Counted from the first letter of the stretch, positions 10,661-63,732 are shown. The stretch is DNA of 64,000 nt from Methanolobus mangrovi (GCF_031312535.1 NZ_CP133594.1:1841934-1905933), one strand, 5' to 3'. Made by a program: numbers and translations. The notes: generated by a model from the sequence alone, not told the origin.

Positions 10661-11431
10661 ATGCCAGAAGTTTACGATAATGGAACAGAGATAGAGGTCA
10701 GAGACCTTAACCTGTGGTACGGGGATAACCATGCCCTTCATGACATATCCATTGATATTCCAAAAAACAGTGTCACGGCACTAATAGGTCCCTCAGGTTG
10801 CGGCAAATCAACTTTCCTCAGATGCCTCAACCGGATGAACGACCTTGTGAAAAGTTGTCGTATCGAAGGGAAAATACATATTGATAACCAGGACATATAT
10901 TCAAAGGACGTTGATGTTGTAGACCTCAGAAAAAGAGTAGGGATGGTATTTCAGAAACCAAACCCATTCCCCATGTCCATCCATGACAACATTGCCTATG
11001 GACCACGTATTCATGGCATAAGCAAAAAGAATATAGATGGTATTGTTGAGGAAGCACTGAAATCAGGAGCACTTTGGGAAGAAGTATCAGAAAGGCTCGA
11101 TAAATCTGCATTGGACCTGAGTGGCGGACAGCAACAAAGGTTATGCATTGCCAGGACACTTGCAGTTAAACCGGAAGTTATATTGTTTGATGAACCTTGC
11201 AGCGCATTGGACCCCATATCTACAAGCAAGATAGAAGAGTTGATCCTTGAACTTAAGAAGGATTACACAATCGTTATCGTCACACATAATATGCAACAGG
11301 CTGCCAGGATTTCAGATTATACCGGCTTTTTTCTGACAGGAGAACTTGTGGAGTTTGACAGGACTACACAAATATTTGAAAGTCCCCAGGAGAAGGCAAC
11401 TGAGGATTATATCACAGGAAGATTTGGGTGA
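10661..11431 (+). CDS. pstB: Phosphate ABC transporter ATP-binding protein
   Basis: This 256-aa ABC ATPase has Walker [10 protein letters not shown] (about residues 43-51), signature LSGGQQQRL, Walker [14 protein letters not shown] and the switch His in VTHNMQQA. The Phe-rich Q-loop ([12 protein letters not shown]) is typical of PstB. An AAGAGGT sequence precedes the ATG. It powers phosphate import through PstC/PstA and is followed four bases later by phoU. Confidence 0.97.
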
Positions 11432-11435
11432 AGAT

Positions 11436-12086
11436 ATGACACGTACCAGGTACCAGGAAACACTTGCCATTCTAAGGAATAGCATCATACAGATGGGAAA
11501 ACTGTCCCAAAATGCCATACATAACTCCATTGAAGCTCTTAAGGATCTTGATATAGAACTTGCAGAAAGTGTTATTGAGGGAGATCAGGTAATCGATGAT
11601 TACGAATTGAGAATTGAAAAGTGTGTGGCTCAACTTATATCGTTGCAAAGTCCAACTGCAGGAGATATGAGACTTGTCACTTCCTGCCTTAAGATAGCTA
11701 TAGACCTTGAAAGAATGAGCGACTTGGCAGTAGATATCGCGCAAAGCACGAAAAAAATAGAAGGCGAACACATCAAACCCCTTATAGACATACCACATAT
11801 GGCAGAGACAGCCGAGAGCATGCTTGAGCAGGTAATGAGGGCTTTTGAAGATAATAATGTTACACTGGCAGAGTCTGTTGCCAAATTGGATGACGAGATA
11901 GACAGAAAGTTCTATGAAGTATGGAAAGAGCTTATCAGTATGATGGTACAGGATGACACCACAATCAACAATGCATCACACCTGTTGTTCGTAATCCGCT
12001 ATCTTGAAAGGATAGGAGACCACGCATGCAATGTTTGTGAGAGCGTGGTCTACATCGCATCAGGAAAAAGGGAAGACCTGAATTAG
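11436..12086 (+). CDS. phoU: Phosphate uptake regulator PhoU
   Basis: The reading frame is open upstream, but the ATG at 11436 follows GGGTG (11426-11430), gives 216 aa and starts where PhoU proteins normally do. The protein is all-helical, with two PhoU repeats (each a three-helix bundle). It carries the acidic metal-cluster residues in the E-x-x-x-D patterns around SPTAGDMRLV and in the second half. PhoU restrains Pst transport and the phosphate response. The stop codon overlaps the end of the convergent polB gene by 4 bp. Confidence 0.93.
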   Translation: MTRTRYQETLAILRNSIIQMGKLSQNAIHNSIEALKDLDIELAESVIEGDQVIDDYELRIEKCVAQLISLQSPTAGDMRLVTSCLKIAIDLERMSDLAVDIAQSTKKIEGEHIKPLIDIPHMAETAESMLEQVMRAFEDNNVTLAESVAKLDDEIDRKFYEVWKELISMMVQDDTTINNASHLLFVIRYLERIGDHACNVCESVVYIASGKREDLN

Positions 12087-49431: not shown

Positions 49432-52092
49432 TCATCTTGCATATATTGCCGAATTATTGGTGACAGGGTCCTTCTCTACAGCAAATACATGATCAGCCGA
49501 GTCAATAAGTGATTCGTCATGAGAAACTATGAGAATTTGTGCAACCCCTATATCCCGCATCATATCTATGAGCTTTATCAACTGATGCACATGTCCCCTG
49601 TCAAGGAACACTGTCGGTTCATCCATGATAAGAGGCGGAAGCCCTGCACCATCATGAGATGATGTGCCCAGTGAAAGCAGGCGGTATATGGCGCAGCGAA
49701 GTACAAGATTAAACAAAGCACGTTCTCCACCACTTAGGAGCTTTGGTTCAAGGGCAGTGCCATCCTTTTCAAACACTGTCAGATTGTAATCAGCATCCAG
49801 CATCACATGAGAGTATGCATTATTGGAATACATAAAAGAGAATATCTCGTTGATCAGCCGGTCAAGTGTCTGTATGTTACTGGAACGCAGTTGTGCGCGT
49901 ATGCGCATATACATGCTCTCAAGGTTCTCAGCATCAGAGTAAACGGCATTGAGATACTCAGCCCTATTCTTCAGAACATTGAGATTCTTCTTAAGGTCTG
50001 AAAGCCGCACCCTGTCATTTTCAGCCATTCCGGCCTTCTTCATGACATCATCTTTTTCAAGCTTCAGCCGGTCAATTTCCGAATTGATCTTTCCAAATGC
50101 AAAACCATAGTCCCTGTTAAGGGATTCAAGTTCTGTTTTATTGAACTTGCCTATTTTATCCTCAATTTCCTTCAGGGATTCTTTCTTCTCACCAATCTGT
50201 CCGTCAAAGAGCAAAACCATTTCCTGAATGCTTTTTATTTTGTCATTCATCTGCCTTATTTCTGAATTGATCTTTTCAAACTCACCCAGTATCTTCTGCA
50301 TTTCCCGGGCAAGACCAAGACTTTCAAGGAACTTTGAATGTTCTTTCAGGACAGATTCTTCATCCTGCCTTATCTGCATGACCTTTGCTTTTGTCTCATC
50401 AAGGGACTTCTCCAGAGACTCTTTACCGGACAACAGTTCCTTGATCTTCAGTTCATCTTCCTTTAAGCGCAGGCCATACTCTTCAATTCTCTTATTATCC
50501 CTCTCAATAGCCTCTTTTGCAGAATCAATACCCCTTACAACAGTATCGATCTCTGATTTACAACCACGGGCTAACCTGACCTTATTCACCCTGCCTTCGG
50601 CTTCAGTCTGTTTGACCTTGAGTTCGGATAATTCAGTTTCCAATTTCTTTACTGTTTCATTATCAGAAGCGGTTGATTCTTCTACACAGGAACCTTTCAG
50701 ATCCTGACCGCATGTAGGGCACTTACCGGCTTCCAGTAGCTGTTTTGAGCGTTCCAGCCGGGTCTTGATTTCGGAAATTTTCACCTTCAGCTCAGCATCC
50801 CTGCCATGGAATCTCTTCTGCTGGTCATTAACAAGGTCGAGAACTTCATCAATGTTTTCAAGTTTTTCAAGACTGAAACCCAGAGACACTATCTTAGATA
50901 CGATATTCTTGTGTTCACCTTCAAGTTCTTCAATGCGGACCTTGTGAGTTCCAATCTCAGAAAGAACACTTTTTATTTTGGATTCGACATCCTTCGCCGC
51001 ATATTCAATGGATTTTGCCTGTTTCTCCAGATCTTTCACAGACTGACCCATGTTAAGGAGGTCCTTTTCATAAACTGCCCTTTTACTTTTCAGATCGCTC
51101 AGCGAGTCCCTCAAAGAACGCTCTTCTCCATCCAGCTTCGCAACCAGAGACTCAACATCTTTTGAATCGGCTTTTAACTGTGACCCTATTTCGGATACTC
51201 TGACCTGTTTTGATTCAAGAAGGTCTTTGTGGGTATGTATGTTCTTTGAAAGAGAATCTATAGAAACGTATGATTGTGATTTTCTGTCAGTCAGGTCCTT
51301 TATCTGTTGCTGCACAGATCCTTTCCTGACGGAAAGTTCGTTTAATTCAGATATCTTTTTTGTAACATCATCTATGAGAGAACGTGTCCGGTCCCTCTTT
51401 TCATTCAGAGAGGAAACTTCAGCATCAATTTCCCCGGACCTTGTCCTGAGAGCTGACAGCCTTCCAGCCGGATCAGTATCCTCGATGAGCTTGATTTCAC
51501 TGGCAACTTCTTTACTACGCCTTTCGTTATCCCTCTGATGACGCCCTACACCTACTCTGGCACTTGAAGCTCGTTCCCGGTACTCTTCCAGTTTACCGAG
51601 CTGCAGAAGACCATCTATCATTTTCTGGCGGTCCTTTGGCTTGGAATTTATCAGGACATCAATTTCACCCTGACGTATGTAAACACAGTTCCGGTAAGCC
51701 TCTTCATCCATATTCAGAAGAGATGTTACTGCTTCGTAGGTTCGTGTTGCCTGATCGAATATTATTTCCCCGTCCTTCATAAAGACAGATTTAGTATTGG
51801 AAGCGCGCCCTTTTTCCGGGTCATTCCGGAAAGATTGTTCCACAGAATAATTATGACCGCTCTGCTCGAATTCAAGTGAGATAGATGCCTTTGAAGCACC
51901 TTTGGTAATGATATCGGAAAGTACAAAATCCCTATCCAGCGTCTTGCTTCCGAAAAGTCCTGTAAAACATGCTTCAAGAAGACTGGACTTGCCACTGCCA
52001 TTAACACCTGAAACAACTGTAACACCGCTCTTAAATGAAAGATCAAGCTGCTCATAGCTTCTGATATTATCAACTTTCAGTCGTTTTAACAT
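49432..52092 (-). CDS. rad50: DNA double-strand break repair ATPase Rad50
   Basis: This 886-aa protein has an N-terminal head with Walker [11 protein letters not shown] (near residue 33) and an antiparallel coiled coil interrupted by the zinc hook CPTC (near residue 458, in [11 protein letters not shown]). The C-terminal head has signature [12 protein letters not shown] and Walker [13 protein letters not shown]. The ATG at 52092 overlaps the mre11 stop (TGATG). With Mre11 it tethers and processes DNA ends. Confidence 0.97.
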
Positions 52093-53576
52093 CACAGGTA
52101 ATCACCCAGATTGTACTGGCGGGGTTTTACAGAGTCCTGAGTCTTTTTATCCTTACTCTCTGACTCTTTTTCATCCTTTTTGATTTCTGAAGGAATTTCA
52201 GCGTTGACTTTCGCATCTTCTGCCACAGACATTTCAGCAGTATCTTTGCCAGTTATATTTTCAACAACAACATCTGCCATTTCAGAAACAACGGTCTTTG
52301 GCACTTCACTTACTAAGTTCTTGTTTAATGTGTCTTCTTTTGATTCTTCCATATCTGCCATGATATTTACTTCAGCTAACTGAAATGTCTCAACTTCTTG
52401 TACATCTGCAGAGAGAACATAGGGAATATCACTAGGAACAGATTCAGTAAAATCAATCTTTTCAAGCAACTGCCCTAATTTGGTTTCAGCTTCATCATCC
52501 ACTTTTGTCTTCACAATCTGTGGATCCCGTATTATATCATCAAGAAGCAAGCCGCCAGCTGTAAGATCCATTTTTTTGATCTCTTCCTTGACAACATCAT
52601 CCGGGTCGGAAAAAGATACTTTCAAAGAAGCATCATCCAGTGTATCGACCCCTGTACGAAGGTCTTTTATCCCCGGCACCAGTGCACCTCTTGCCAGAAG
52701 GAACTTCTCTATTTCACTGAAATCCAGCTTTGCTTTAACGTCACCCGAAATCTCTACGAAGACAACTTTCTGAGCAATATCATATTCCATTACTGTGGAA
52801 AATACATCATCGTGAGCATTCGGAGCTTCTGTGAGCGTGACAGGTATGAATACAAATTCACGTGTTGGAATTACACGTTTGCTTATCTCGATCCCGCCCT
52901 CTCCAATAGTGACGATGTTATACGCTCGTGGTTCACGTTCGGAAGTACTGTTCCTTTCAGTACTGCCACAGTAGGTAACCCATGCATCACTAACTGTTAT
53001 GACCTCGTTCTTGTGATTGTCTCCAAGAAGAACTGCATGAACATCAAAAGGAATTGATTCAATTACATCTTTAATATCCCAGTCACCGAAGGCGAAAGGC
53101 TTTACCAGCTGGTGCATTGCAAGAAGATTGTACCGTGCATCAGTTGCTTTGCCTTCAAATACAGAATAATCGAATAAAGGTATCTTTGTCCTGGGCACAC
53201 TATCAATACCATATAATGCAACCTCACCAAGCCTGTAAGGCTCAGTGCCAAGACGAGTCACAAGACCAAGGCTGCTGTAAAGATCAAGCCACTGAGTACT
53301 CTGCTTGCTCTCATGATTACCAACAATTGCAAGAAGCGGGATTCCTGCACTTTTCAGCCTTGAGAACAGCCCCATGGCATCAAGAATATCGTCAAGTGTG
53401 GGATTCCTGGAATCAAACAGGTCACCTGCATGCACCACGGCATCCACGTTCATACTAATAGCATCATCTACAACAGTGGAAAAAGCATTGAGAAAATCCT
53501 GCCGGCGCACATCACTGTGATACTGCCGGTATCCAAGATGGGTATCCCCTGTGTGGACTATCCTTATCTCATCCAT
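52092..53576 (-). CDS. mre11: DNA double-strand break repair nuclease Mre11
   Basis: This 494-aa protein has a metallophosphoesterase domain (residues 1-220) with the metal motifs GDTHLG (D11, H13), GDLFD (D52), GNHE (N87, H88) and MHQ (H155). The fifth motif is GDNH (D186, H188) where other Mre11 proteins have GHxH. A capping domain follows (about 225-300). The Rad50-binding region (about 310-385) leads into a 110-residue acidic Glu/Asp/Lys/Val-rich tail, probably disordered. Coupled to rad50; the pair heads the block of chromosome-maintenance genes on this strand. Confidence 0.94.
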
Positions 53577-53683
53577 CAGGGACTATGATATGTATTTCCA
53601 GTTTTTAATTGTTTGGGCTCAGGACTTCAATGCATATATGAGAAACAAAATAGAGAAATATAAAATAGATTCTACAATTATTT

Positions 53684-53692
53684 TTTATATAA
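53684..53692 (+). promoter_or_regulatory. Promoter of the first pilin-like cassette
   Basis: TTTATATAA, inside TACAATTATTTTTTATATAAT. The same string, with two base changes (TACAATTATCCTTTTATATAAT), precedes the second cassette at 58462-58483. Transcription would start near 53712, leaving a very short leader before the ATG at 53719. Confidence 0.6.
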
Positions 53693-53718
53693 TTAGCTAC
53701 TAATTATAATGGGACATT

Positions 53719-54186
53719 ATGGATAGCAAAGGCCAGATAACTATAGACTACCTGATCAGCATAACTGTTTTTATGTTCGCAGTTATTTTTGTGTTCAACT
53801 ACACTACAGGAATATTTACACCATTCCATTCTAATTCTGATGAAGTTACATTAGTTGCTGACAGAACCTCAACTGTCCTTGTAGAAAAAGTGCTGAATGA
53901 AGGCGATGAAACAGTCCCTAACATGGTTAATTCAGCAAAGGTTGATGATTTCTTTGAAGACCTGGATGATAACTATGAAAATACCGTATATCAGCTTGGC
54001 CTGGAAGGATCATACCTCAGGTATGACCTCAACGTTACATTAGAGAATGAAACCGGAATGATCAATATGACTGGTAAGACAATACCATCCGGTGTCAATG
54101 TAGGCCAGACAAAACGAATAGTCTTACTGAAAGATGCAGGTACAGGAAGCACAGAAGTTGCAATAATGTCATTCAGGGTGTGGTAA
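53719..54186 (+). CDS. Pilin-like protein A1 (first gene of cassette A)
   Basis: This 155-aa protein begins MDSKGQITIDYLI, a short basic leader with Lys-Gly followed by Q-x-T-x-D, close to the archaeal class III (type IV pilin/archaellin) processing site. One hydrophobic helix (residues 9-29) comes next. The exported part contains TPF[H/Q]SNSDEVTL, several Asn-x-Ser/Thr sites and ends VRVW/FRVW as in its paralog B1 at 58510. I associate this family with the small membrane proteins encoded near pil-type genes in haloarchaea (DUF72xx group; from memory, not checked). Function unknown; probably a minor subunit of a surface filament or a pseudopilin-like complex. Confidence 0.8.
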   Translation: MDSKGQITIDYLISITVFMFAVIFVFNYTTGIFTPFHSNSDEVTLVADRTSTVLVEKVLNEGDETVPNMVNSAKVDDFFEDLDDNYENTVYQLGLEGSYLRYDLNVTLENETGMINMTGKTIPSGVNVGQTKRIVLLKDAGTGSTEVAIMSFRVW

Positions 54187-54187
54187 T

Positions 54188-54802
54188 GTGATCTGGAGAT
54201 TATTTGGAGAAAAAGAGAGCACGCATGCCCAGATGCATACCCTTGAAGCTATGATGGCAGCACTGATCATGATAGGAGTGATAGTGTTTGCCGTAGAGGC
54301 AACCTCACTCACACCCCTGACATCATCAACTGCAAACGCACATATTGAAGCCCAGTTACAGACCATGGGGCAGGATATGCTGAATGTACTATCCTACACT
54401 TCTTCCGGCCAGGACTCTGCTCTCAAGAACGATGTGAAGAATTGGAACGGGACGGAATTCGTATGGAACGGAACAGAATACAGGTCGACAGATTCCAGTA
54501 ACACCACTCTGGTAAATAGTTCCCTTGCTGACATATTTTCGTTTATCGCAATTCCAAGAGGAATTGCACATAATGTCCATTTTACGTGGACAAATGATGA
54601 TGGTGTCACAATATCAAGATCTTATATCTACAATGGCGACCCATCCGATAACGCAGTAATTGTCTCAAAAAAAATACTCCTGTCTGACCCTGATATCGGA
54701 AATACATCATCATTCATGGTAAATACAGGCATACCTGATGCAGACAATACTAGTGATTTTTACAACATTGTCAATGTTAAAATGACACTCTGGAGAATGT
54801 GA
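54188..54802 (+). CDS. Pilin-like protein A2 (second gene of cassette A)
   Basis: This 204-aa protein has a GTG start placed one base after the A1 stop; the ribosome binding site AGGGTG lies in the end of A1, the same junction as between B1 and B2. A short charged leader with HAQMHTLEAMM is followed by a hydrophobic helix (about 18-37). The exported domain has conserved TSLTPLTSSTANAHIEAQL and GIAHNV, YIYNG[D/E]PSDNAV blocks shared with B2 (58988). Four or more N-glycosylation sequons. Function unknown. Confidence 0.8.
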   Translation: MIWRLFGEKESTHAQMHTLEAMMAALIMIGVIVFAVEATSLTPLTSSTANAHIEAQLQTMGQDMLNVLSYTSSGQDSALKNDVKNWNGTEFVWNGTEYRSTDSSNTTLVNSSLADIFSFIAIPRGIAHNVHFTWTNDDGVTISRSYIYNGDPSDNAVIVSKKILLSDPDIGNTSSFMVNTGIPDADNTSDFYNIVNVKMTLWRM

Positions 54803-55677
54803 GAACATTGAAACGTGATGGAATAAAAGAACTTGATGAAAGAGCACAGTTGCTCCTGATAGCAGGATTTGCAGTAGGAGTAGGTATAGTAGTGCTCACT
54901 ATCATGTTGAACAACGTAATATATGCCAGTAACATCGCCTCAGAATCAAGCATTGACACTTCACGTTATGACATGGCAAATACAGTTCAGATGACATCAG
55001 AAGCTTATGAGGATGCTTACAGATATGCCATAGAAGGTACAAATCTGAACTCTACAAAATTTGAGCAGTATCTGGACGAATATTCAGAAACCGCATCCAA
55101 AAATTATGCACTATCGGGATTGACCTTTAGCTTTGAGAATAATACATTATATGAACCATACTTCAGTCAGAATGGACTTGTGGATGGAAATCATGACTGG
55201 ACAGTTATCAGTAATGTCAATACCACTGATGTATTCCTATTGGACATACCAGACCCTGCTAAATTAGGAAATAGTTCTAACAGCTTGTTAGTGACAATTG
55301 ATAATGAATCGGAAACTATCTGGTCTATGGAACTGTACAACTCCAATGGAACCATCAACATCAATGTTTCATACCAGTCATCAATACTAACATATACAGC
55401 CTCCAATTACACTTCTATCAACGTGACCGGTAATGAAATCAACAACGTTAATAAGGTATTCCATTTTGAAGATAATACAGAAGGAACTGATTATTCGATA
55501 AATATCTTCAATGGTAGCAACACTGTAGGATACTGCACCTTTTCAGGAAACCTGACATCAGGAGAAGAATTTGTATTTGCAAGGCATAGTGTTGTCAATC
55601 CTACAGTTACCATGTCATCCAGTGAGATGAGCGTTACCCGCAATCTGCCAATATCTTTGCCAGGGAGGAACATATGA
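54799..55677 (+). CDS. Pilin-like protein A3 (third gene of cassette A)
   Basis: This 292-aa protein from GTG (54799), overlapping the A2 stop by 4 bp; TTG at 54808 would align better with its paralog B3 (289 aa). Leader ERAQLLLIAGF, one membrane helix (about 20-42), then an exported domain with YASN[I/T]ASESSI shared with B3 and many Asn-Ser/Thr sites. The leader has A-Q instead of G-Q at the expected cleavage point. Ends overlapping A4 (ATGA). Function unknown. Confidence 0.8.
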   Translation: MRTLKRDGIKELDERAQLLLIAGFAVGVGIVVLTIMLNNVIYASNIASESSIDTSRYDMANTVQMTSEAYEDAYRYAIEGTNLNSTKFEQYLDEYSETASKNYALSGLTFSFENNTLYEPYFSQNGLVDGNHDWTVISNVNTTDVFLLDIPDPAKLGNSSNSLLVTIDNESETIWSMELYNSNGTININVSYQSSILTYTASNYTSINVTGNEINNVNKVFHFEDNTEGTDYSINIFNGSNTVGYCTFSGNLTSGEEFVFARHSVVNPTVTMSSSEMSVTRNLPISLPGRNI

Positions 55678-56153
55678 AACTACGGAACCTGAGTAATGAT
55701 GAGAACGCGGTGTCCATCACCATCGGATTCATACTTACCTTTTCAATCACAGTCCTCATGCTTGTGACAATACTCAGCTCATTCTATTCGCTCATGGACC
55801 AGGCAGAGCAAACGGTCATGCGTGATGAATTTGAGATACATGGAAATGATATTGCTGTACGTATTGCAAACATGGACACAATGGTCGGAAATGCAGCAAA
55901 TTCAGGATCAGAGGTCGATGAAATAAGGTACGAACTGTCCCTTCCGGACAGGATTGCAGGAAAACCATATTCTGTAGAGTTTGACAACAGTAGCAAAGAC
56001 ATTGTATTCGTATCCGAAGAAAGAGACAACACGATAGTAAAAGTACCATATTATGCAGAAAATACAGTAGTCCTTTCAACCACATTGTACAGCCAAAAGG
56101 GAGAGTTTATGATGACATACACACCCGGAACAAATGCCATAGAGATATCCTGA
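55674..56153 (+). CDS. Pilin-like protein A4 (fourth gene of cassette A)
   Basis: This 159-aa protein begins with the leader NDENAVSITIGF, resembling the AVS[P/x] start of archaeal pilins, and a hydrophobic helix (about 15-38). A highly conserved block shared with B4 follows (MDQAEQTVMRDEFEIHGND and RADEIA-type segments), then a beta-rich part with LPDRIAGK. The start overlaps the A3 stop as ATGA. B4 (60472) has the same overlap. Function unknown. Confidence 0.8.
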   Translation: MKLRNLSNDENAVSITIGFILTFSITVLMLVTILSSFYSLMDQAEQTVMRDEFEIHGNDIAVRIANMDTMVGNAANSGSEVDEIRYELSLPDRIAGKPYSVEFDNSSKDIVFVSEERDNTIVKVPYYAENTVVLSTTLYSQKGEFMMTYTPGTNAIEIS

Positions 56154-56169
56154 GAATACGGAAGGTCAC

Positions 56170-56952
56170 ATGAAAATTACAGGAAGAAAAAGGTTGTTCC
56201 ATTCCGATGATGCAGTATCGGAAGTTGTAGACTTCACAATAACACTCGGACTGATGCTACTGGCAATTAGCATCATAGGTATTGCAGGATATCCCATGAT
56301 CGAGCACATGAAAGAATCTGGACATGAGGAGAATATCCGGCAAAGTTTCGCAGTCCTTACCCCCAACATGAACAAAATAGTGTTTGGTAAAGCCCCCTCC
56401 CAATCTGTAGAATTAAAACTGCATGGCGGCCTGGTCTCTGTCACAGGTAACAGCTACATGAACGTCACAATGGACACATGGAATCAATCGAGTTCCTCAA
56501 ACGAAACGGTTTCTTTTGAAAGACAGCTGCGCATGATAGAAAATGAATACAAGGACGCATCCTTTGCTTATGAGAACACAGGAGCATGGGCTAAATACCC
56601 ACAGGGAAGGGCTGTAGCAGTGGAAAAACCTGTTTTTGCATATGATGACAGTTCATTGGTAATACCCATGGTTACAATCACAGGTACTAAAGGAATAGCA
56701 GGAGAAGGACTTATCCGTGTTGTATCAGATGGTGGTCAGCTTTCAGTTGAGATGTACGAAAATGTGTCAAGAGTGGAAATAGCAATCTCAAGTGATTACT
56801 ACGAAGCATGGGAAAAGTACCTGGATAATTCAATTGGAATGCAGATACTGGATGTTAATACGAGTTCCAGAACCGTACGTGCAGAAAAAGATTACAATCC
56901 AAATATAGACGTCTTCATTTCAACATCCCCTATGAGTGTGACCGTTGAGTAA
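56170..56952 (+). CDS. Pilin-like protein A5 (fifth gene of cassette A)
   Basis: This 260-aa protein has leader SDDAVSEVVDF followed by a membrane helix (about 25-45). The exported domain shares with A6 a Q[S/A]F.V...K(V/I)..G.(A/S)PSQ pattern (FGKAPSQSVELK here; LGESPSQTTS in A6) and a later GxWxKYPxG segment. So genes 5 and 6 descend from one ancestor. It carries GGAAGGT before the ATG. The paralog in cassette B is at 60965. Function unknown. Confidence 0.8.
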   Translation: MKITGRKRLFHSDDAVSEVVDFTITLGLMLLAISIIGIAGYPMIEHMKESGHEENIRQSFAVLTPNMNKIVFGKAPSQSVELKLHGGLVSVTGNSYMNVTMDTWNQSSSSNETVSFERQLRMIENEYKDASFAYENTGAWAKYPQGRAVAVEKPVFAYDDSSLVIPMVTITGTKGIAGEGLIRVVSDGGQLSVEMYENVSRVEIAISSDYYEAWEKYLDNSIGMQILDVNTSSRTVRAEKDYNPNIDVFISTSPMSVTVE

Positions 56953-56966
56953 AAAATGGTGATATA

Positions 56967-58439
56967 ATGAGTGCCTGTCTCTTGAAAAAGTTCATAGAAT
57001 CTGAAAAAGCCGTTTCACCCATAGTAGGAATGATAATAATACTTGCAATGACGATCACATCTGTCAGTGTGATTTTCCTTTATGGAGTTCCTACCATATA
57101 TGAAATGCAGGACATGGCAAATGCCCAGAAAGTGGAGCAAGCCTTCACAGTATTCGATTCAAGGACAAGCAAAGTCGCACTGGGAGAATCCCCTAGCCAG
57201 ACAACATCATTTTCCATGATGGATGGAGACATAATAGTAAAGGGAGATAACGCATCATATGAAGAAAGCCGGATAGTCATTATATCTGTGGATATTAACG
57301 CATCATGGTACGACGGTTTCAAACAGCAAAGATATAGATGGAAAGGATGGGAGGACTATGTCGGCAATGAAAGTATGAATGAGTTCAATGCTTCCATGGG
57401 AAGTATCGTCTACACCAATAATGACAGGATAATTGGGTATGAAGGAGGAGGAGTATGGTCCAAATACCCAAATGGTAAATCAGTAATGATATCTCCGCCG
57501 GAATTCCACTACAATGGTGAAACTTTGACACTTCCCATCATGAAGATAGAAGGAGATGCAGTATACAGTGGGAAATCTGATGTTAGGATTACAATAAGCT
57601 CCGATAATCTTCCCGCAGTATTGTATCCAAACCCTTCCTCAGATTCAAGAAGAACTAATCCACTTACATCCGATAAAGTAATGATCTACATTAAGAGTGA
57701 GTTCTACAATGCATGGGCAGATTATGCAAATTCACTTGCATATGCCAGCGCTGAAACAGATGATGCAAACCAGACAGCCATCGTTGAACTGGAAGTTATT
57801 CCTGCCATGGGAAAAGATACATTGAAAACAGCTTTCAAAATAGGTTCAGTTAATCAGGACAATTCTACACCAATGGGGAAATTCTCTTTTGATCTTGAAG
57901 CAAGGGCATCCCAAGGACTCAACCCCAGTAACTATCAAATCACTGCAACATCAGGAACAAGGACATTAACATACACACTTGCAAAGAAAGGTGGGAATGA
58001 TCAGCTCGAAATAGGCCTTATTTATGAAGATGTTGCTCCGGGCGGAGGAATTGAGACATGGGAAGGAGATGGTGAATTTGATGTAAGTGGCGCAAATGAA
58101 GAACAATCAGCTACTGTAGACCTACTTTCCACAACAATGACAATGAAGTATGATGCCAAGGATGGCGAAGAATTCTCATGGGGAAACAATACATCCATTA
58201 GTATCACACCTGATGTTGATTATAGCAATGATGCACCCGAATCCCTATTCATCTTGACGCAACATTACATGAAACTCCTAACAATGGAGGGATCAGTAGT
58301 CTTTAACCTCATACAGCCCGGAAATTCAGATCCTGTAGATTATGATGAATCCAGCCTCACATTATACTATGACGGTATGCCAGGAAGTATAACATATCTT
58401 CATGTCAGCAGAAATGACCTTACAGCTACTCTAAACTGA
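56967..58439 (+). CDS. Pilin-like protein A6 (sixth gene of cassette A)
   Basis: This 490-aa protein is the largest of the cassette. It has leader SEKAVSPIVGMIIILAMTITS, the classic archaeal pilin start (AVSPIVG) and a hydrophobic helix (about 17-38). A long exported region follows: first part paralogous to A5, then a C-terminal domain of about 200 residues that ends YLHVSRNDLTATLN. GGTGATATA precedes the ATG. Its paralog is B6 (61756). The size suggests a surface-exposed tip or adhesin-like subunit, which is inference. Confidence 0.8.
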   Translation: MSACLLKKFIESEKAVSPIVGMIIILAMTITSVSVIFLYGVPTIYEMQDMANAQKVEQAFTVFDSRTSKVALGESPSQTTSFSMMDGDIIVKGDNASYEESRIVIISVDINASWYDGFKQQRYRWKGWEDYVGNESMNEFNASMGSIVYTNNDRIIGYEGGGVWSKYPNGKSVMISPPEFHYNGETLTLPIMKIEGDAVYSGKSDVRITISSDNLPAVLYPNPSSDSRRTNPLTSDKVMIYIKSEFYNAWADYANSLAYASAETDDANQTAIVELEVIPAMGKDTLKTAFKIGSVNQDNSTPMGKFSFDLEARASQGLNPSNYQITATSGTRTLTYTLAKKGGNDQLEIGLIYEDVAPGGGIETWEGDGEFDVSGANEEQSATVDLLSTTMTMKYDAKDGEEFSWGNNTSISITPDVDYSNDAPESLFILTQHYMKLLTMEGSVVFNLIQPGNSDPVDYDESSLTLYYDGMPGSITYLHVSRNDLTATLN

Positions 58440-58473
58440 TGCGCAGAAAACACAATGTATTTACAATTATCCT

Positions 58474-58482
58474 TTTATATAA
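58474..58482 (+). promoter_or_regulatory. Promoter of the second pilin-like cassette
   Basis: TTTATATAA in a context almost identical to the first cassette's promoter (see 53684). A start near 58502 precedes GAGG (58502-58505) and the ATG at 58510. The 70 bp between the A6 stop and B1 hold nothing else. Confidence 0.6.
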
Positions 58483-58509
58483 TAACTAATGTATATATTG
58501 TGAGGAATT

Positions 58510-58986
58510 ATGATTGATACCCGTGGCCAGATGCACATAGATTACCTTATAGGCATCGCTATTTTCCTGACAAGTGTCATATTTGTTTTTTCATATACTA
58601 CAGGGCTTTTCACCCCTTTCCAGTCTAACTCGGATGAAGTGACGCTCATAGCCGATAGAATCTCAACAAACCTGATAGAGCAGAATATGAGTGCTGGAAA
58701 TCCCCGAACACCTAGTCTGCTCAATGGTACAAAAGTTAATGATTTCTTTTATCAATCAAGTACCAATTATGAAAGTACCATTGATTACTATGGAATGCGT
58801 AGTTCCTATTTACGGTATGACTTCAACATCACATTAGAGAACATCGCATCAAACTCACTCATTTATTCTTCTGGCAAACCGTTGCCAACACAGGGAAACA
58901 TAGGTCAGACTAAAAGAATAGTCATTGTCCGGAATGAAAATAACGGGAATGAAACCCAGAGAATTCTATCTGTGAGGGTGTGGTAA
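58510..58986 (+). CDS. Pilin-like protein B1 (first gene of cassette B)
   Basis: This 158-aa paralog of A1, with about half of the residues alike by eye, starts MIDTRGQMHIDYLI: Arg-Gly then Q-x-x-x-D, again a class III-like processing site, then a hydrophobic helix. SNSDEVTL, SSYLRYD, GQTKRIV and the VRVW end are kept, while the central part has diverged with new sequons. GAGG ribosome binding site before the ATG. Confidence 0.8.
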   Translation: MIDTRGQMHIDYLIGIAIFLTSVIFVFSYTTGLFTPFQSNSDEVTLIADRISTNLIEQNMSAGNPRTPSLLNGTKVNDFFYQSSTNYESTIDYYGMRSSYLRYDFNITLENIASNSLIYSSGKPLPTQGNIGQTKRIVIVRNENNGNETQRILSVRVW

Positions 58987-58987
58987 T

Positions 58988-59599
58988 ATGAACCCGAAAA
59001 TAACCACACAGGTATTTAAAACAGATTCATGCGCCCAATTACACACACTTGAAGCCTTAATGGCCCTCATAATAATAACGGGAATAATAATCTTCACAGT
59101 ACAGGCAACTTCACTTACTCCCCTTACATCCTCAACGGCAAATGCACACATAGAAGCACAGCTTCAGACCCTGGCACAGGATATGCTAACCGTGCTCGAC
59201 CACTCCCAATCAGGACATAATTCCAGTCTCAAAGAAGACATATTGAACTGGGATGGAGATGAGTATGCCTGGAATTCTACGGCATATCATTCAGAGCTAA
59301 ACAATACCCTTACGAGCAGTTCAACTGAAATACTAAAATCTGTGATCGTTCCCAAAGGTATAGCACATAATGTGGAATTTGCTGTGATCAATGATGCAGG
59401 AGCCGTAATGACCCTGCCTTACATCTACAATGGTGAACCCTCTGATAACGCTGTAACAGTATCCAGAAGGATATTGCTATCTAATTCAGACATATCAAAT
59501 TCTTCCCAATTCCAATCATATACAGGCATAGCAGATGCCGATACAAGTACGGATTTCTATAACCTCATTGACGTTAAAATGACTTTATGGAGAATGTAA
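58988..59599 (+). CDS. Pilin-like protein B2 (second gene of cassette B)
   Basis: This 203-aa paralog of A2 starts at ATG one base after the B1 stop, with GAGGGTG inside B1, the same junction as in cassette A. The leader contains CAQLHTLEAL, where a Cys precedes the Ala; the helix is at about 22-40. A 21-residue block around SSTANAHIEAQLQT is unchanged between A2 and B2, as are YIYNGEPSDNAV and the end DVKMTLWRM. Confidence 0.8.
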   Translation: MNPKITTQVFKTDSCAQLHTLEALMALIIITGIIIFTVQATSLTPLTSSTANAHIEAQLQTLAQDMLTVLDHSQSGHNSSLKEDILNWDGDEYAWNSTAYHSELNNTLTSSSTEILKSVIVPKGIAHNVEFAVINDAGAVMTLPYIYNGEPSDNAVTVSRRILLSNSDISNSSQFQSYTGIADADTSTDFYNLIDVKMTLWRM

Positions 59600-59614
59600 A
59601 AAGACGGTGCTAAC

Positions 59615-60475
59615 ATGAAAAGACTGAACGAATCCGGACAGATGATATTGATTGCCGGTTTTATAATCGGCATAGGCATCGTAGTCCTGACTGTCATGCT
59701 TAACAACATCGTCTATGCAAGCAATACAGCCTCAGAATCCAGTATTGAGACAAATGTCTTTGATTTTTCCAATGTTGTGCAGACAACTACAGAAGCTTAT
59801 GAAAAGGCTTACGCAGACTCAAATGGAGGAGTGGACAATGCAACATTTGATGCCTATATGGCGAAATATTCAGAGAAGATGATAGAGAGTTATTCGCTTT
59901 CAGGTTTTATATTCTCTCTTGACTCTGGTGTATTGCAGGATACCTATTTCACAGAAAATGGACTCGCAGACGGGAACGACAACTGGGTTGTTATTGAAAG
60001 AGTCAATTACACCGATTATTTCCTGCTATCCAGACTCAATGCATCAACTCTTGGAAATGAGTCAAACAAGTTTGTGATAGAAGTCAATAATCAGTCAGGC
60101 AGCACAATCTGGTCAGCCAGTCTTTTCAATTCAAGCGGGAATATCAATGTAACTGTCTACGACAGTAGCAATACACCACACTACAACAATGATAGTGCTA
60201 CTATCTATGACTTCAACGTCACCAGTAATCAACTGGAAGGAGGTTACTTCGAGTATTTCTTCAATAACCAGACTGCTGAGGAGACTTACAGCATCAAATT
60301 CATAAATGGTAGTCAGGCCATGGGCACTTTCCTGATATCAGGAGATCTTGTTAACTGGGACCCATTCTACATTGAAAGAGTAGAGGTCGTCAATAGCACC
60401 ATGAAACTGAACAAGAACGGCCATCTTGAGATCAATGTGACAATACCCATTACACTACCGAGGGGACACATATGA
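59615..60475 (+). CDS. Pilin-like protein B3 (third gene of cassette B)
   Basis: This 286-aa paralog of A3 begins MKRLNESGQMILIAGF, with S-G-Q at the processing point, closer to the canonical Gly than A3's A-Q, then a helix (about 10-32). YASNTASESSIE and the general exported pattern are shared with A3. GGTG before the ATG. It ends overlapping B4 (ATGA). Many Asn-x-Ser/Thr sites suggest heavy glycosylation. Confidence 0.8.
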   Translation: MKRLNESGQMILIAGFIIGIGIVVLTVMLNNIVYASNTASESSIETNVFDFSNVVQTTTEAYEKAYADSNGGVDNATFDAYMAKYSEKMIESYSLSGFIFSLDSGVLQDTYFTENGLADGNDNWVVIERVNYTDYFLLSRLNASTLGNESNKFVIEVNNQSGSTIWSASLFNSSGNINVTVYDSSNTPHYNNDSATIYDFNVTSNQLEGGYFEYFFNNQTAEETYSIKFINGSQAMGTFLISGDLVNWDPFYIERVEVVNSTMKLNKNGHLEINVTIPITLPRGHI

Positions 60476-60948
60476 TACAGCGATTCAAAGATGATGAAAG
60501 GGCCGTATCCATATCAGTGGGTTTCATATTGACCCTCTCAATAACTGTGATAACTATGATGGTTGTCATCAGCTCATTCTATACCATGATGGACAGGGCA
60601 GAACAAACCATAATGCGGGATGAGTTTGAGATACACGGTAACGATATGGCATTGCAGATATCCAATATTGACACTGCGGTGCAGATTACCAGAAATGCAG
60701 GTGGCGAAGTAGGTAGCTTTTTCTTTAAATTACCACTTCCGGATGAGATTGCAGGTCAGCAATACTCGATGGAGTTATCGAATCAGACCAATGAGATCAT
60801 ATTTGAATCCCATGGAAAAGAGGCAACACGGGTAAAAGTACCCTACAATGTACATGAAACTGAAGTCGCATCAGTAAAATTGTTCAGTGGCTCAGATGAG
60901 TTCATGTTGTACTACAATCCGGCCTCAAATATGATAGAAATATATTAA
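60472..60948 (+). CDS. Pilin-like protein B4 (fourth gene of cassette B)
   Basis: This 158-aa paralog of A4 has leader DDERAVSISVGF and a hydrophobic helix (about 16-39). It keeps the strongly conserved AEQTIMRDEFEIHGNDMA block and LPDEIAGQ. The A4/B4 pair looks the most conserved of the six by eye, suggesting a structural contact. The start overlaps the B3 stop as in cassette A. Confidence 0.8.
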   Translation: MIQRFKDDERAVSISVGFILTLSITVITMMVVISSFYTMMDRAEQTIMRDEFEIHGNDMALQISNIDTAVQITRNAGGEVGSFFFKLPLPDEIAGQQYSMELSNQTNEIIFESHGKEATRVKVPYNVHETEVASVKLFSGSDEFMLYYNPASNMIEIY

Positions 60949-60964
60949 AAACAGAGGGAGTTGC

Positions 60965-61735
60965 ATGAAAATGAATTTTACGAAATCGGATGATGCAGTA
61001 TCAGAAATGGTAGATTACAGCATCATTTTAAGTATTATACTTCTTGCAACCGGAATCATCGTAGTAGCTGGTGTGCCGATGTTAGAACATATACAGGAAA
61101 CCCAGCACACTGATAATATAAAGCAGAGTTTTCAGGTGCTTGCACCAAATGTGAATAAAGTTGTATTTGGAAATGCTCCTGCTCAATCAGTTGAACTGAA
61201 AATGTACGGTGGCTCGCTTTCTGTTACAAAGGATAATTACATCAATATAAGCATGCAGGTATGGAACAATTCAGCAGGCTCCCCTGAAACAGTATCTTTT
61301 GGAAGGCAGATGGGAAATATAGAGAATGATTTCCAGAATACTTTAATTTGTTATGAAAATAGTGGCGTATGGGCCAAATACGCATCCGGAGATTCTGTTA
61401 TGGTCGCTGAGCCACGTTTTACCTATGCAAATAATGTACTTGTGATACCCGATGCAAGTGTTTCAGGCAGCAGTTCGGTGTCTGGATCAGGACTTGTACG
61501 TGTGACCGCTGATGCAGGAAGAAGATCCATTGAAAGCTACCGGAATGTATCACAGGTCAATGTAACGGTAACAAGCGATTACTTTAAAGCATGGGAAAAG
61601 TTCCTGAACGAACGTCTGGAGATGTCAACTATAGATATTAACGAGACGACTCAAACTGTTTTAGCAGGTAAGAGTTATACCGAAAATATAGATGTATACA
61701 TCATCAAGGCAGCCATGGATGTAACTATCGATTAA
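60965..61735 (+). CDS. Pilin-like protein B5 (fifth gene of cassette B)
   Basis: This 256-aa paralog of A5 has leader SDDAVSEMVDY, a hydrophobic helix (about 18-40), the QSFQVLAPNVNKVVFGNAPAQS block and the later GVWAKYASGDS segment. A second ATG two codons on could be the start; GAGGGAG lies ahead of both. Its TAA overlaps an ATG of B6. Confidence 0.8.
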   Translation: MKMNFTKSDDAVSEMVDYSIILSIILLATGIIVVAGVPMLEHIQETQHTDNIKQSFQVLAPNVNKVVFGNAPAQSVELKMYGGSLSVTKDNYINISMQVWNNSAGSPETVSFGRQMGNIENDFQNTLICYENSGVWAKYASGDSVMVAEPRFTYANNVLVIPDASVSGSSSVSGSGLVRVTADAGRRSIESYRNVSQVNVTVTSDYFKAWEKFLNERLEMSTIDINETTQTVLAGKSYTENIDVYIIKAAMDVTID

Positions 61736-61755
61736 TGAACATGTGGAGTGAAAAA

Positions 61756-63219
61756 ATGGGAAAGAACCTGTCAGGGAATAAACTTGCTGTTTCATCGGTT
61801 GTAGGAATCGTAGTAATGCTGGCAATCACTCTCCTGTCAATAGGGATAATGATACTCTACACCATGCCTGCAATAGACAGCATGCAAGACATGGCTAAAG
61901 CCCAGAAGATTGAGCAGGCTTTTACGGTTTTTGACTCAAGAACAAGTAAGGCAGCCCTTGGAGAATCCCCTCTTCAGACAACTGAACTTTCCCTCATGGG
62001 CGGCAACATTGAAGTGATGGGGGACGATGATGCCTACAATGAAAGCCGGATAATGATCATAGGACTTTCATCAAACTCGACATGGTATAATGATTTTTAC
62101 CAGAATCGTAGCTATTGGAATGCATGGGCAGACTATGAGAATAAGACAGACTTTGCAGGATTTAACGCATCAATGGGAAAGATAGTATACACATACAATG
62201 ATCGCATAATTGCCTATGAGGGTGGAGGTGTCTGGTCCAGATATCCCACAGGCGGAACAATAATGATATCTCCTCCGGAGTTTCATTTCAATGGAGAAAC
62301 ATTGACACTTCCAATCATGCAGATAATAGGGAATACTTCCGTTGCAGGAACCACTGATGCATCAATCACCGTTGAATCCTCCAATGACCCTGAGATATTA
62401 TTCCCGAATACCAACCTCAACAGTATTTTTGTCAATCCTCTTGATCTTGACAAGATAATCATTTACATCCAGAGTGAGTTCTATGATGGATGGGCAGACT
62501 ATGCAGAAACCCTCATATCCACCACAGCAACTCTGGACCATGCGAACAGGACAGCTATACTGGACCTTGATACAGTGCCTGAAATGGGCACATTCCCACT
62601 AATCCAGCACTTTAAAATCCAACAACTGAACGAATCCAATCCAGAACCGATCTACAATTTCTCATTTTACATTGATGTAATAACACAAGATGCATCGAAT
62701 TTCAATTCTGTTGATATGACACTCAAAGCCACATCTGGAGGGAAATATCTGGAATACAATACCAAGAAGACCACTATCCAGTATATTATATACACTGATT
62801 CTGCGGTAAATCCCCCCGTTCAGGAGACCTGGGTGGATGCTGGCAGTGAATTTACAGAATATGAAGATCCTGACAGCAATAAACATTCAAACTGCACCTT
62901 TGACCTTCTTAATGAGACATATCTTATGAAATATGATGATGCTGATGGTGAGGAATACTCTTGGGACCTAACAAGCCCAACAACAATGATACCAAATGCA
63001 ACTATCGAAGAAGATGATCTGCAGTCCCTAAACAATATAACTCAGCACTACTTCAAACTCATGGCACAGGAAGGAACAATTGACTGTACCTGGGAACAGA
63101 GTACAAACAATAAAGTGGAGGAAATAGATTCCGAATACACCCTCATATACGACGGAGGAGGAGCACTCATTACCTTCCTTCACGTTACCACCAACGAACT
63201 TGAAGCAACAGTAGATTGA
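61756..63219 (+). CDS. Pilin-like protein B6 (sixth gene of cassette B)
   Basis: This 487-aa paralog of A6 starts at 61756 after GGAGTG; ATGs at 61735 and 61741 are upstream alternatives. The leader GNKLAVSSVVGIVVML has AVSS instead of AVSP. The first part matches A6 closely (FDSRTSKAALGESP, EGGGVWSRYPTGG, ISPPEFHFNGETLTLPIM), while the C-terminal 200 residues diverge more, ending FLHVTTNELEATVD. Last gene of cassette B; 80 bp later a cyclophilin gene begins. Confidence 0.8.
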   Translation: MGKNLSGNKLAVSSVVGIVVMLAITLLSIGIMILYTMPAIDSMQDMAKAQKIEQAFTVFDSRTSKAALGESPLQTTELSLMGGNIEVMGDDDAYNESRIMIIGLSSNSTWYNDFYQNRSYWNAWADYENKTDFAGFNASMGKIVYTYNDRIIAYEGGGVWSRYPTGGTIMISPPEFHFNGETLTLPIMQIIGNTSVAGTTDASITVESSNDPEILFPNTNLNSIFVNPLDLDKIIIYIQSEFYDGWADYAETLISTTATLDHANRTAILDLDTVPEMGTFPLIQHFKIQQLNESNPEPIYNFSFYIDVITQDASNFNSVDMTLKATSGGKYLEYNTKKTTIQYIIYTDSAVNPPVQETWVDAGSEFTEYEDPDSNKHSNCTFDLLNETYLMKYDDADGEEYSWDLTSPTTMIPNATIEEDDLQSLNNITQHYFKLMAQEGTIDCTWEQSTNNKVEEIDSEYTLIYDGGGALITFLHVTTNELEATVD

Positions 63220-63300: not shown

Positions 63301-63732
63301 ATGAAGAAAGCAATCATCGAGACTGATAAAGGAAATATTGTTCTGGAACTGTTCGAAAAGGATGCACCAAAGACCGTGGCAAACTTTGAGAAACTCATCA
63401 AGGAAGGATTCTATGACGGACTTACTTTCCACAGAGTAATCCCAAACTTTGTCATCCAGGGTGGATGCCCAAAAGGCAACGGTACAGGCGGCCCAGGATA
63501 CACAATAAAGTGTGAGACAAGAAATAATCCACAGAAACACGGCACAGGTGCACTTTCAATGGCACATGCAGGAAAGGATACCGGCGGAAGCCAGTTCTTC
63601 ATCACACACTCACCACAGCCACACCTTGATGGCGTACACACTGTCTTCGGTAAGGTAATTGAAGGCATGGAAGTCGTCAACAAGATCAAAGCAAAAGATG
63701 TGATGAGAAAAGTCACTGTTGTTGAAGAATAA
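63301..63732 (+). CDS. Peptidyl-prolyl cis-trans isomerase, cyclophilin type
   Basis: This 143-aa cyclophilin has [27 protein letters not shown] and [22 protein letters not shown] with the active-site Arg, Gln, Phe and His of the family. There is no signal peptide, so it acts in the cytoplasm on proline peptide bonds. The ATG at 63301 follows GGTG (63291-63294); the GTG nine bases earlier lies inside that site. It has its own promoter region (AAACACTTAAATTAGG) after cassette B. Confidence 0.95.

Follow-up and report, generated by a model that had tools for sequence, protein, structure and literature searches.

Why does a genome keep, side by side, two complete copies of the same six-gene set that differ in about half of their residues? 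The question is raised by the 64,000 nucleotides (nt) of Methanolobus mangrovi analyzed here (GCF_031312535.1, NZ_CP133594.1:1841934-1905933; the window), where operon A (53719-58439) is followed by operon B (58510-63219), six genes each, in a collinear one-to-one match. We suggest that A and B are two paralogous pilin sets of the archaeal PilB4 type, each probably a minor-pilin complex that forms the tip of a pilus or initiates it, both served by one shared motor; we give this explanation a probability of about 0.55. The elements of the two operons are listed below by their position in the window, with lengths in amino acids (aa), Pfam matches and, for B, the identity to the A partner.

53682..53693, plus strand: TATA-like promoter element of operon A, TTTTTATATAAT (from the sequence; the box is recurrent in the genus)
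53719..54186, plus strand: A1, DUF7287 pilin-like protein, 155 aa (PF23958, E = 2.5e-34)
54188..54802, plus strand: A2, DUF7288 pilin-like protein, 204 aa, GTG start (PF23959, E = 4e-47; AlphaFold)
54799..55677, plus strand: A3, DUF7261 pilin-like protein, 292 aa, GTG start, overlapping A2 (PF23922, E = 3.7e-06)
55674..56153, plus strand: A4, DUF7266 pilin-like protein, 159 aa (PF23928, E = 5.6e-13)
56170..56952, plus strand: A5, DUF7289 pilin-like protein, 260 aa (PF23960, E = 5.5e-24)
56967..58439, plus strand: A6, large DUF7289+DUF7308 pilin-like subunit, 490 aa (PF23985, E = 3.5e-23; PF23960, E = 1.3e-22; AlphaFold)
58472..58483, plus strand: TATA-like promoter element of operon B, CTTTTATATAAT, in the 70-nt spacer between A and B (from the sequence)
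58510..58986, plus strand: B1, DUF7287 pilin-like protein, 158 aa (PF23958, E = 4.4e-36), 51.6% to A1
58988..59599, plus strand: B2, DUF7288 pilin-like protein, 203 aa (PF23959, E = 4.4e-44), 58.3% to A2
59615..60475, plus strand: B3, DUF7261-like protein, 286 aa (24.3 bits, just below the Pfam cut-off of 27), 42.9% to A3
60472..60948, plus strand: B4, DUF7266 pilin-like protein, 158 aa (PF23928, E = 3.4e-11), 50.6% to A4
60965..61735, plus strand: B5, DUF7289 pilin-like protein, 256 aa (PF23960, E = 7e-28), 50.0% to A5
61756..63219, plus strand: B6, large DUF7289+DUF7308 pilin-like subunit, 487 aa (Pfam), 47.5% to A6

The original prediction, made from the sequence alone, had read the region as a tandem duplication of a whole operon of pilin-like genes with copies diverged by about half. 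This is correct, and the case is stronger than it was put there. The twelve reading frames are found at the predicted places and sizes and all are intact, partner identities range from 42.9 to 58.3%, and the pairwise alignment scores are high only on the diagonal, with 420 to 1098 between partners and at most 50 between non-partners. Genes 5 and 6 are the exception, being old paralogues of each other (scores of 230-274, 26-29% identity between copies). The one-to-one match is far beyond chance. The junctions, described as alike, are so between genes 1 and 2 (1-nt gap) and between genes 3 and 4 (4-nt overlap), and also between genes 4 and 5 (16-nt gap), but not between genes 2 and 3, which overlap by 4 nt in A and are separated by 15 nt in B. 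For B6 there is an upstream in-frame ATG at 61735; we preferred the start at 61756, which has a GGAG site before it and agrees with A6. A separate TATA-like box, TTTTATATAAT, precedes each operon, about 25-27 nt upstream of the first ATG, and across the genus roughly half of the A copies and the majority of the B copies have the box at that distance.

The pair is old. In the tree of concatenated sets, A and B are reciprocally monophyletic (Shimodaira-Hasegawa-like, SH-like, support from FastTree of 0.996 and 1.0), a topology also obtained in a separate tree run. Since both clades hold members from Methanomethylovorans, the duplication predates the split between this genus and Methanolobus, and a duplication private to the M. 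mangrovi genome is excluded by the trees. The paired genes do group as A/B pairs, with B monophyletic in six of six single-gene trees (SH-like 0.967-1.0), while gene 6 alone fails to give an A clade. In the Methanomethylovorans genome G139, an A set lies at Mre11 and a B set at the isomerase gene that borders the locus in Methanolobus, with about 60 kb between them. The ratio of nonsynonymous to synonymous substitution rates (dN/dS) between orthologues is 0.05-0.22 in both copies, indicating purifying selection and bearing out the earlier claim of long retention by selection. It could be argued that the duplication is neutral or transient, with B redundant or in decay, since copy number does vary: G133 has lost A, and several species have no B at this site. 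The age of the A/B split, the twelve intact frames and the low dN/dS of both copies already contradict this, leaving it a probability close to nil.

Two other kinds of duplication were observed. In a genome from another family of the phylum (G193, locus L121, 3939-14546) there is a tandem pair of whole six-gene sets, possibly an independent duplication. In Methanococcoides (L047, L048, L049) and Methanohalophilus (L060), gene 6 alone is tandem-duplicated behind a six-gene set.

What do these genes encode? In gene order they belong to the Pfam families DUF7287, DUF7288, DUF7261, DUF7266, DUF7289 and DUF7289+DUF7308, and our literature search found no paper naming any of DUF7261, DUF7266, DUF7287, DUF7288 or DUF7289. 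The reading of all twelve products as archaeal type IV pilin-like proteins, predicted before, is well supported by modelled architecture: genes 4 and 6 have weak similarity to Pilin_N, the archaeal pilin N-terminus, and the two families modelled out of six, with input alignments of 82 (A2) and 57 (A6) sequences, show a long N-terminal helix followed by a beta-rich head. The helix spans residues 12-69 in A2 (58 residues; predicted local distance difference test, pLDDT, 90.1) and 18-71 in A6 (54 residues; pLDDT 88.7). Because the models combine this helix and head and have no significant solved relative, we class the families as type IV pilin-like by architecture, with no matched head fold. The top fold matches of A6, a laminin fragment and galectin domains, were discarded for their TM-scores below 0.3.

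In all twelve proteins a short leader is followed by a [GA][QV] core ahead of the hydrophobic helix, and one prepilin peptidase match is found in the genome (PF01478 at 1769991-1770332). An acidic residue near mature position 5 is retained by genes 1 (D5), 2 (E6) and 5 (E3); in gene 1, Asp occupies position 5 in 52 of 55 homologues. Genes 4 and 6 mostly have none, as is the case for many archaeal pilins, and gene 3 has no acidic residue at mature positions 3-8 in any of 57 homologues. The heads are rich in Asn, Ser and Thr, as had been noted (21-37%, against 15-18% for Rad50, Mre11 and the isomerase). Between A and B, identity at mature residues 26-60 is 60-80% in five of the six genes and falls to 37-55% further on in all six, a contrast that would fit helices packed in a shared machine and exposed, divergent heads.

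Which machine could assemble them? The motor is not adjacent to the operons in M. mangrovi, where none of the five loci with an ATPase of type IV pilus (T4P) type carries a set. In haloarchaea, an ATPase/TadC pair adjoins the pilin set, and its best match is the pair of locus L136 of M. mangrovi in 12 of the 12 named loci; this motor lies in trans, at about 950.2-954.6 kb of the genome (G000). For DUF7288, 116 of 186 genomes of the order are positive, none of them from genus g13, as are 193 of the 295 genomes sampled across the phylum; Methanosarcina acetivorans, used as a control, is negative as well. We called a TadC of L136 type an orthologue at 53% identity or more, clearly above the paralogues at 35-39%. 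Among 118 good genomes of the order, 79 have both this TadC and DUF7288 and 35 have neither, with two exceptions in each direction, whereas a control TadC (L138 type) shows no association with DUF7288 (41/81 vs 14/37, Fisher p = 0.24). The exceptions having TadC and no DUF7288 are G098 and G072, and could be gaps, divergence or real losses. In G139 the L136-type TadC is matched only in part (G139:C2:1050015-1050938) although the pilin sets persist; gene 1 of its A set is split and gene 5 is short. Another ATPase/TadC pair of M. mangrovi, at locus L138 (about 362.7 kb), is directly followed by a single DUF7289-like pilin gene (10689-11579).

In outline, then, operons A and B belong to a known, uncharacterised archaeal pilus type, and the view that the system had no described parallel did not hold: both the pilin set and its motor were outlined for euryarchaea by Makarova, Koonin and Albers in 2016 (PMC4858521), and the families are widespread in the phylum. 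Shared features are the ATPase/TadC pair beside its own multi-pilin set in haloarchaea and a large, duplication-prone pilin of 250-550 aa (arCOG02911), comparable to the DUF7289 genes 5 and 6 by description, not arCOG by arCOG. Likewise, the L136 pair corresponds in outline to haloarchaeal PilB4/PilC4 by the description in that paper, not by comparison with HVO_1160. Methanolobus differs in having the motor in trans, the six-gene set duplicated in tandem and the locus as an exchangeable island. New here are the paired and exchangeable layout of whole operons, the old duplication, its site in an island bordered by Mre11/Rad50 and the isomerase, the short set described below and the exchange between species; the last three, and the motor in trans, are visible only by comparison with other genomes and had been missed in the original prediction.

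The same paper suggests that all pilins of the locus are structural and predicts a major pilin of its own for it (arCOG03926). Each operon could accordingly be a complete pilus including its major pilin, for which the small gene 4 and gene 1 are the likely candidates, giving two filaments with one motor. The weak Pilin_N similarity of gene 4 and the separate promoters of A and B are in line with this. A stand-alone canonical PilA-type gene does exist, however (L237, 2153-2641, VSPVIGVILMVAITVIL), among three stand-alone Pilin_N genes found elsewhere in the genome, and no gene of the sets has the codon bias of a very abundant protein. In addition, in relatives adhesin-type domains lengthen genes 2, 3 and 4 to as much as 1,511 aa, which would fit poorly into a filament built of thousands of subunits. 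We regard two complete filaments as the less likely reading. In other lineages the pilins of these families are fused to VWA, PKD, FG-GAP or bacterial Ig domains; examples are:

L129, 5387-7759: gene 4 fused to VWA
L130, 4934-7477: gene 4 fused to VWA
L231, 3004-7539: gene 2 fused to FG-GAP repeats
L124, 5683-8070: gene 3 or 4 fused to Big_7
L133, 11905-13722: gene 3 or 4 fused to Big_7

Bacterial systems offer a precedent for sets of minor pilins. Their tip complexes start assembly and include a cap subunit that has no Glu5 (PMC10191384), and those of type IVa pili (T4aP) join PilY1, a beta-propeller protein that also has a VWA domain in roughly one case in three (PMC13190605). In Myxococcus xanthus one T4aP is served by three minor-pilin/PilY1 clusters (PMC13190605), and the Myxococcus Kil (Tad) pilus has four paralogous minor-pilin sets that act as interchangeable tips (PMC12075869). 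Clusters 1-3 resemble the Methanolobus locus in that several paralogous multi-pilin operons serve one machine, a VWA domain being linked with the tip in one cluster; they differ in their protein families and composition (four minor pilins plus PilY1), and the function proven there is inferred here. The Kil tips consist of three pilins per set, belong to a bacterial Tad system, are encoded at separate loci and were tested genetically, while the tip role of the Methanolobus sets is proposed.

We favor alternative tip complexes because of the helix/head contrast, the adhesin-domain fusions, the bacterial tip complexes and the several Myxococcus sets per machine. The one prepilin peptidase detected would process the pre-pilins, and the one ATPase/TadC motor encoded elsewhere would assemble them. 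Each set would form a heteromeric minor-pilin complex, docked in the common assembly machine by its conserved helices, while the divergent beta-rich heads, foremost that of the large sixth subunit, would face the outside, perhaps in adhesion. With separate promoters, A and B may provide two alternative working ends for the same pilus. The original prediction had offered a minor-pilin type initiation complex or two versions of a surface appendage; it was right in kind and is partly supported, and of its two options we favor the former.

Several observations weigh against this explanation. The strict archaeal prepilin pattern, [DERK][GA][ALIFQMVED][ILMVTAS], fits only 7 of the 12 proteins, and neither the A2 nor the A6 model gave a significant match to solved structures in the PDB, by Foldseek or by sequence search. 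The co-occurrence counts ignore phylogeny, and most of the genomes with neither gene belong to genus g13. Two genomes, G049 and G009, have DUF7288 and no orthologue of the L136 TadC (here too gaps, divergence or real losses are possible), and in another the L136-type TadC contains four stops with the pilins retained (G147:C1:487522-488853). Codon adaptation is average in the twelve genes (0.49-0.61) and not separable from that of the PilA-type gene (0.607); no gene stands out, so we set this measure aside as uninformative for pointing to a major pilin. Finally, given the major pilin predicted for the PilB4 locus by Makarova and colleagues, one gene per operon could be the major pilin.

Where do the operons sit? 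They occupy a genomic island with fixed borders, which in the window are:

49432..53576, minus strand: Rad50 and Mre11, fixed left border in the genus (locus comparison)
63307..63732, plus strand: cyclophilin-type peptidyl-prolyl isomerase, fixed right border (PF00160, E = 1.7e-48; locus comparison)

Mre11/Rad50 form the left border in all 21 Methanolobus loci examined and the isomerase the right border in 20; in G114 the next gene along is seen, which is ModA-like. Between them are A and B in 9 loci, including that of M. mangrovi, A and a short set in 7, A, short set and B or a longer arrangement in 4, and a short set alone in 1. The short set has five genes, the first long (about 320 aa), genes 2-5 shorter and gene 6 missing. 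Downstream of it, in Methanolobus, a gene on the opposite strand encodes a giant protein with a Sec-type start (1,842-2,021 aa when complete). The two giants scanned, from Methanolobus and Methanococcoides, contain Big_1 and VWA domains (PF00092, E = 1.3e-39 and 8.2e-33) and no beta-propeller family was found in them, in which they differ from PilY1; FG-GAP repeats are seen instead on gene 2 in L231. Short sets with a convergent giant gene were observed in Methanolobus (L095, L098, L099, L111, L112, L114), Methanococcoides (L051) and Methanohalophilus (L059, L060), with giants of about 1,750-2,020 aa where complete. In M. mangrovi no copy of the giant was detectable, in a search run without a positive control, and the idea that A and B always need it as a partner was rejected.

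Could the giants instead be cargo? If so, the sets might not be pilus parts and might export through the PilB4-type motor as a pseudopilin-like piston for secretion or as a surface-protein complex anchored in the membrane, as six different exported one-helix proteins and the lack of an obvious highly expressed filament gene may also suggest. The giants have a Sec-type start of their own, though, and none was detected in M. mangrovi, which yet retains A and B; moreover, to our knowledge such archaea have no outer membrane or secretin, which counts against a piston. We consider this improbable.

The island probably acts as a replacement site at which whole operons, or their 3' parts, are traded among Methanolobus species. 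Rejection is mutual between the Mre11+Rad50 tree and those of A and B. Between genomes G119 and G137 the flank is 92% identical, A 59% and B 79%, and between G137 and G126 the flank is 56% and A 75% identical; in two TadC genes far from the island, G119 and G137 are near to M. mangrovi and G126 is far, as in the flank. In G136, gene 1 matches the relative G135 (89%) and genes 2-6 match G124, as expected for a recombination junction that would lie near the operon start. The nearest partner of gene 6 is often other than that of genes 1-5. Synonymous divergence between M. mangrovi and G132 is 0.40-0.76 in B, about half of that in A (1.07-1.46), as if A or B had been exchanged between lineages. 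Replacement flexible genomic islands (PMC4033161) hold different genes of similar function at the same site in different strains, with homologous recombination involved; they are known from strains of aquatic prokaryotes, and the Methanolobus cargo is whole pilin operons passing between species.

The presence of two divergent sets at a swap site points to an exchange of whole sets as the way in which these archaea may alter the working end of one pilus machine. By analogy we tentatively propose, at somewhat less than an even chance, an island of interchangeable pilus tips, in which one motor would serve several minor-pilin sets (A, B, and in some species a third, five-gene set with its giant secreted VWA/Big_1 protein as adhesin) kept side by side and traded by recombination, an archaeal counterpart of the swappable Myxococcus tips built from unrelated subunits. 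PilB4-type pilin sets rank with the commonest archaeal surface genes that still lack an explanation, their six Pfam models being of unknown function, and the locus provides a specific hypothesis for them that can be tested, namely that they are alternative working ends of one pilus with a named motor. The whole operon appears as the unit kept and exchanged; the variable parts are gene 6 and the heads. If true, interspecies recombination of surface gear and the convergent use of VWA and propeller domains at a pilus tip would reach methanogens. In the haloarchaeal genome G428 (L132, 2240-16687), a protein of 2,267 aa that begins like a pilin and carries CARDB repeats lies between two divergent pilin sets on opposite strands.

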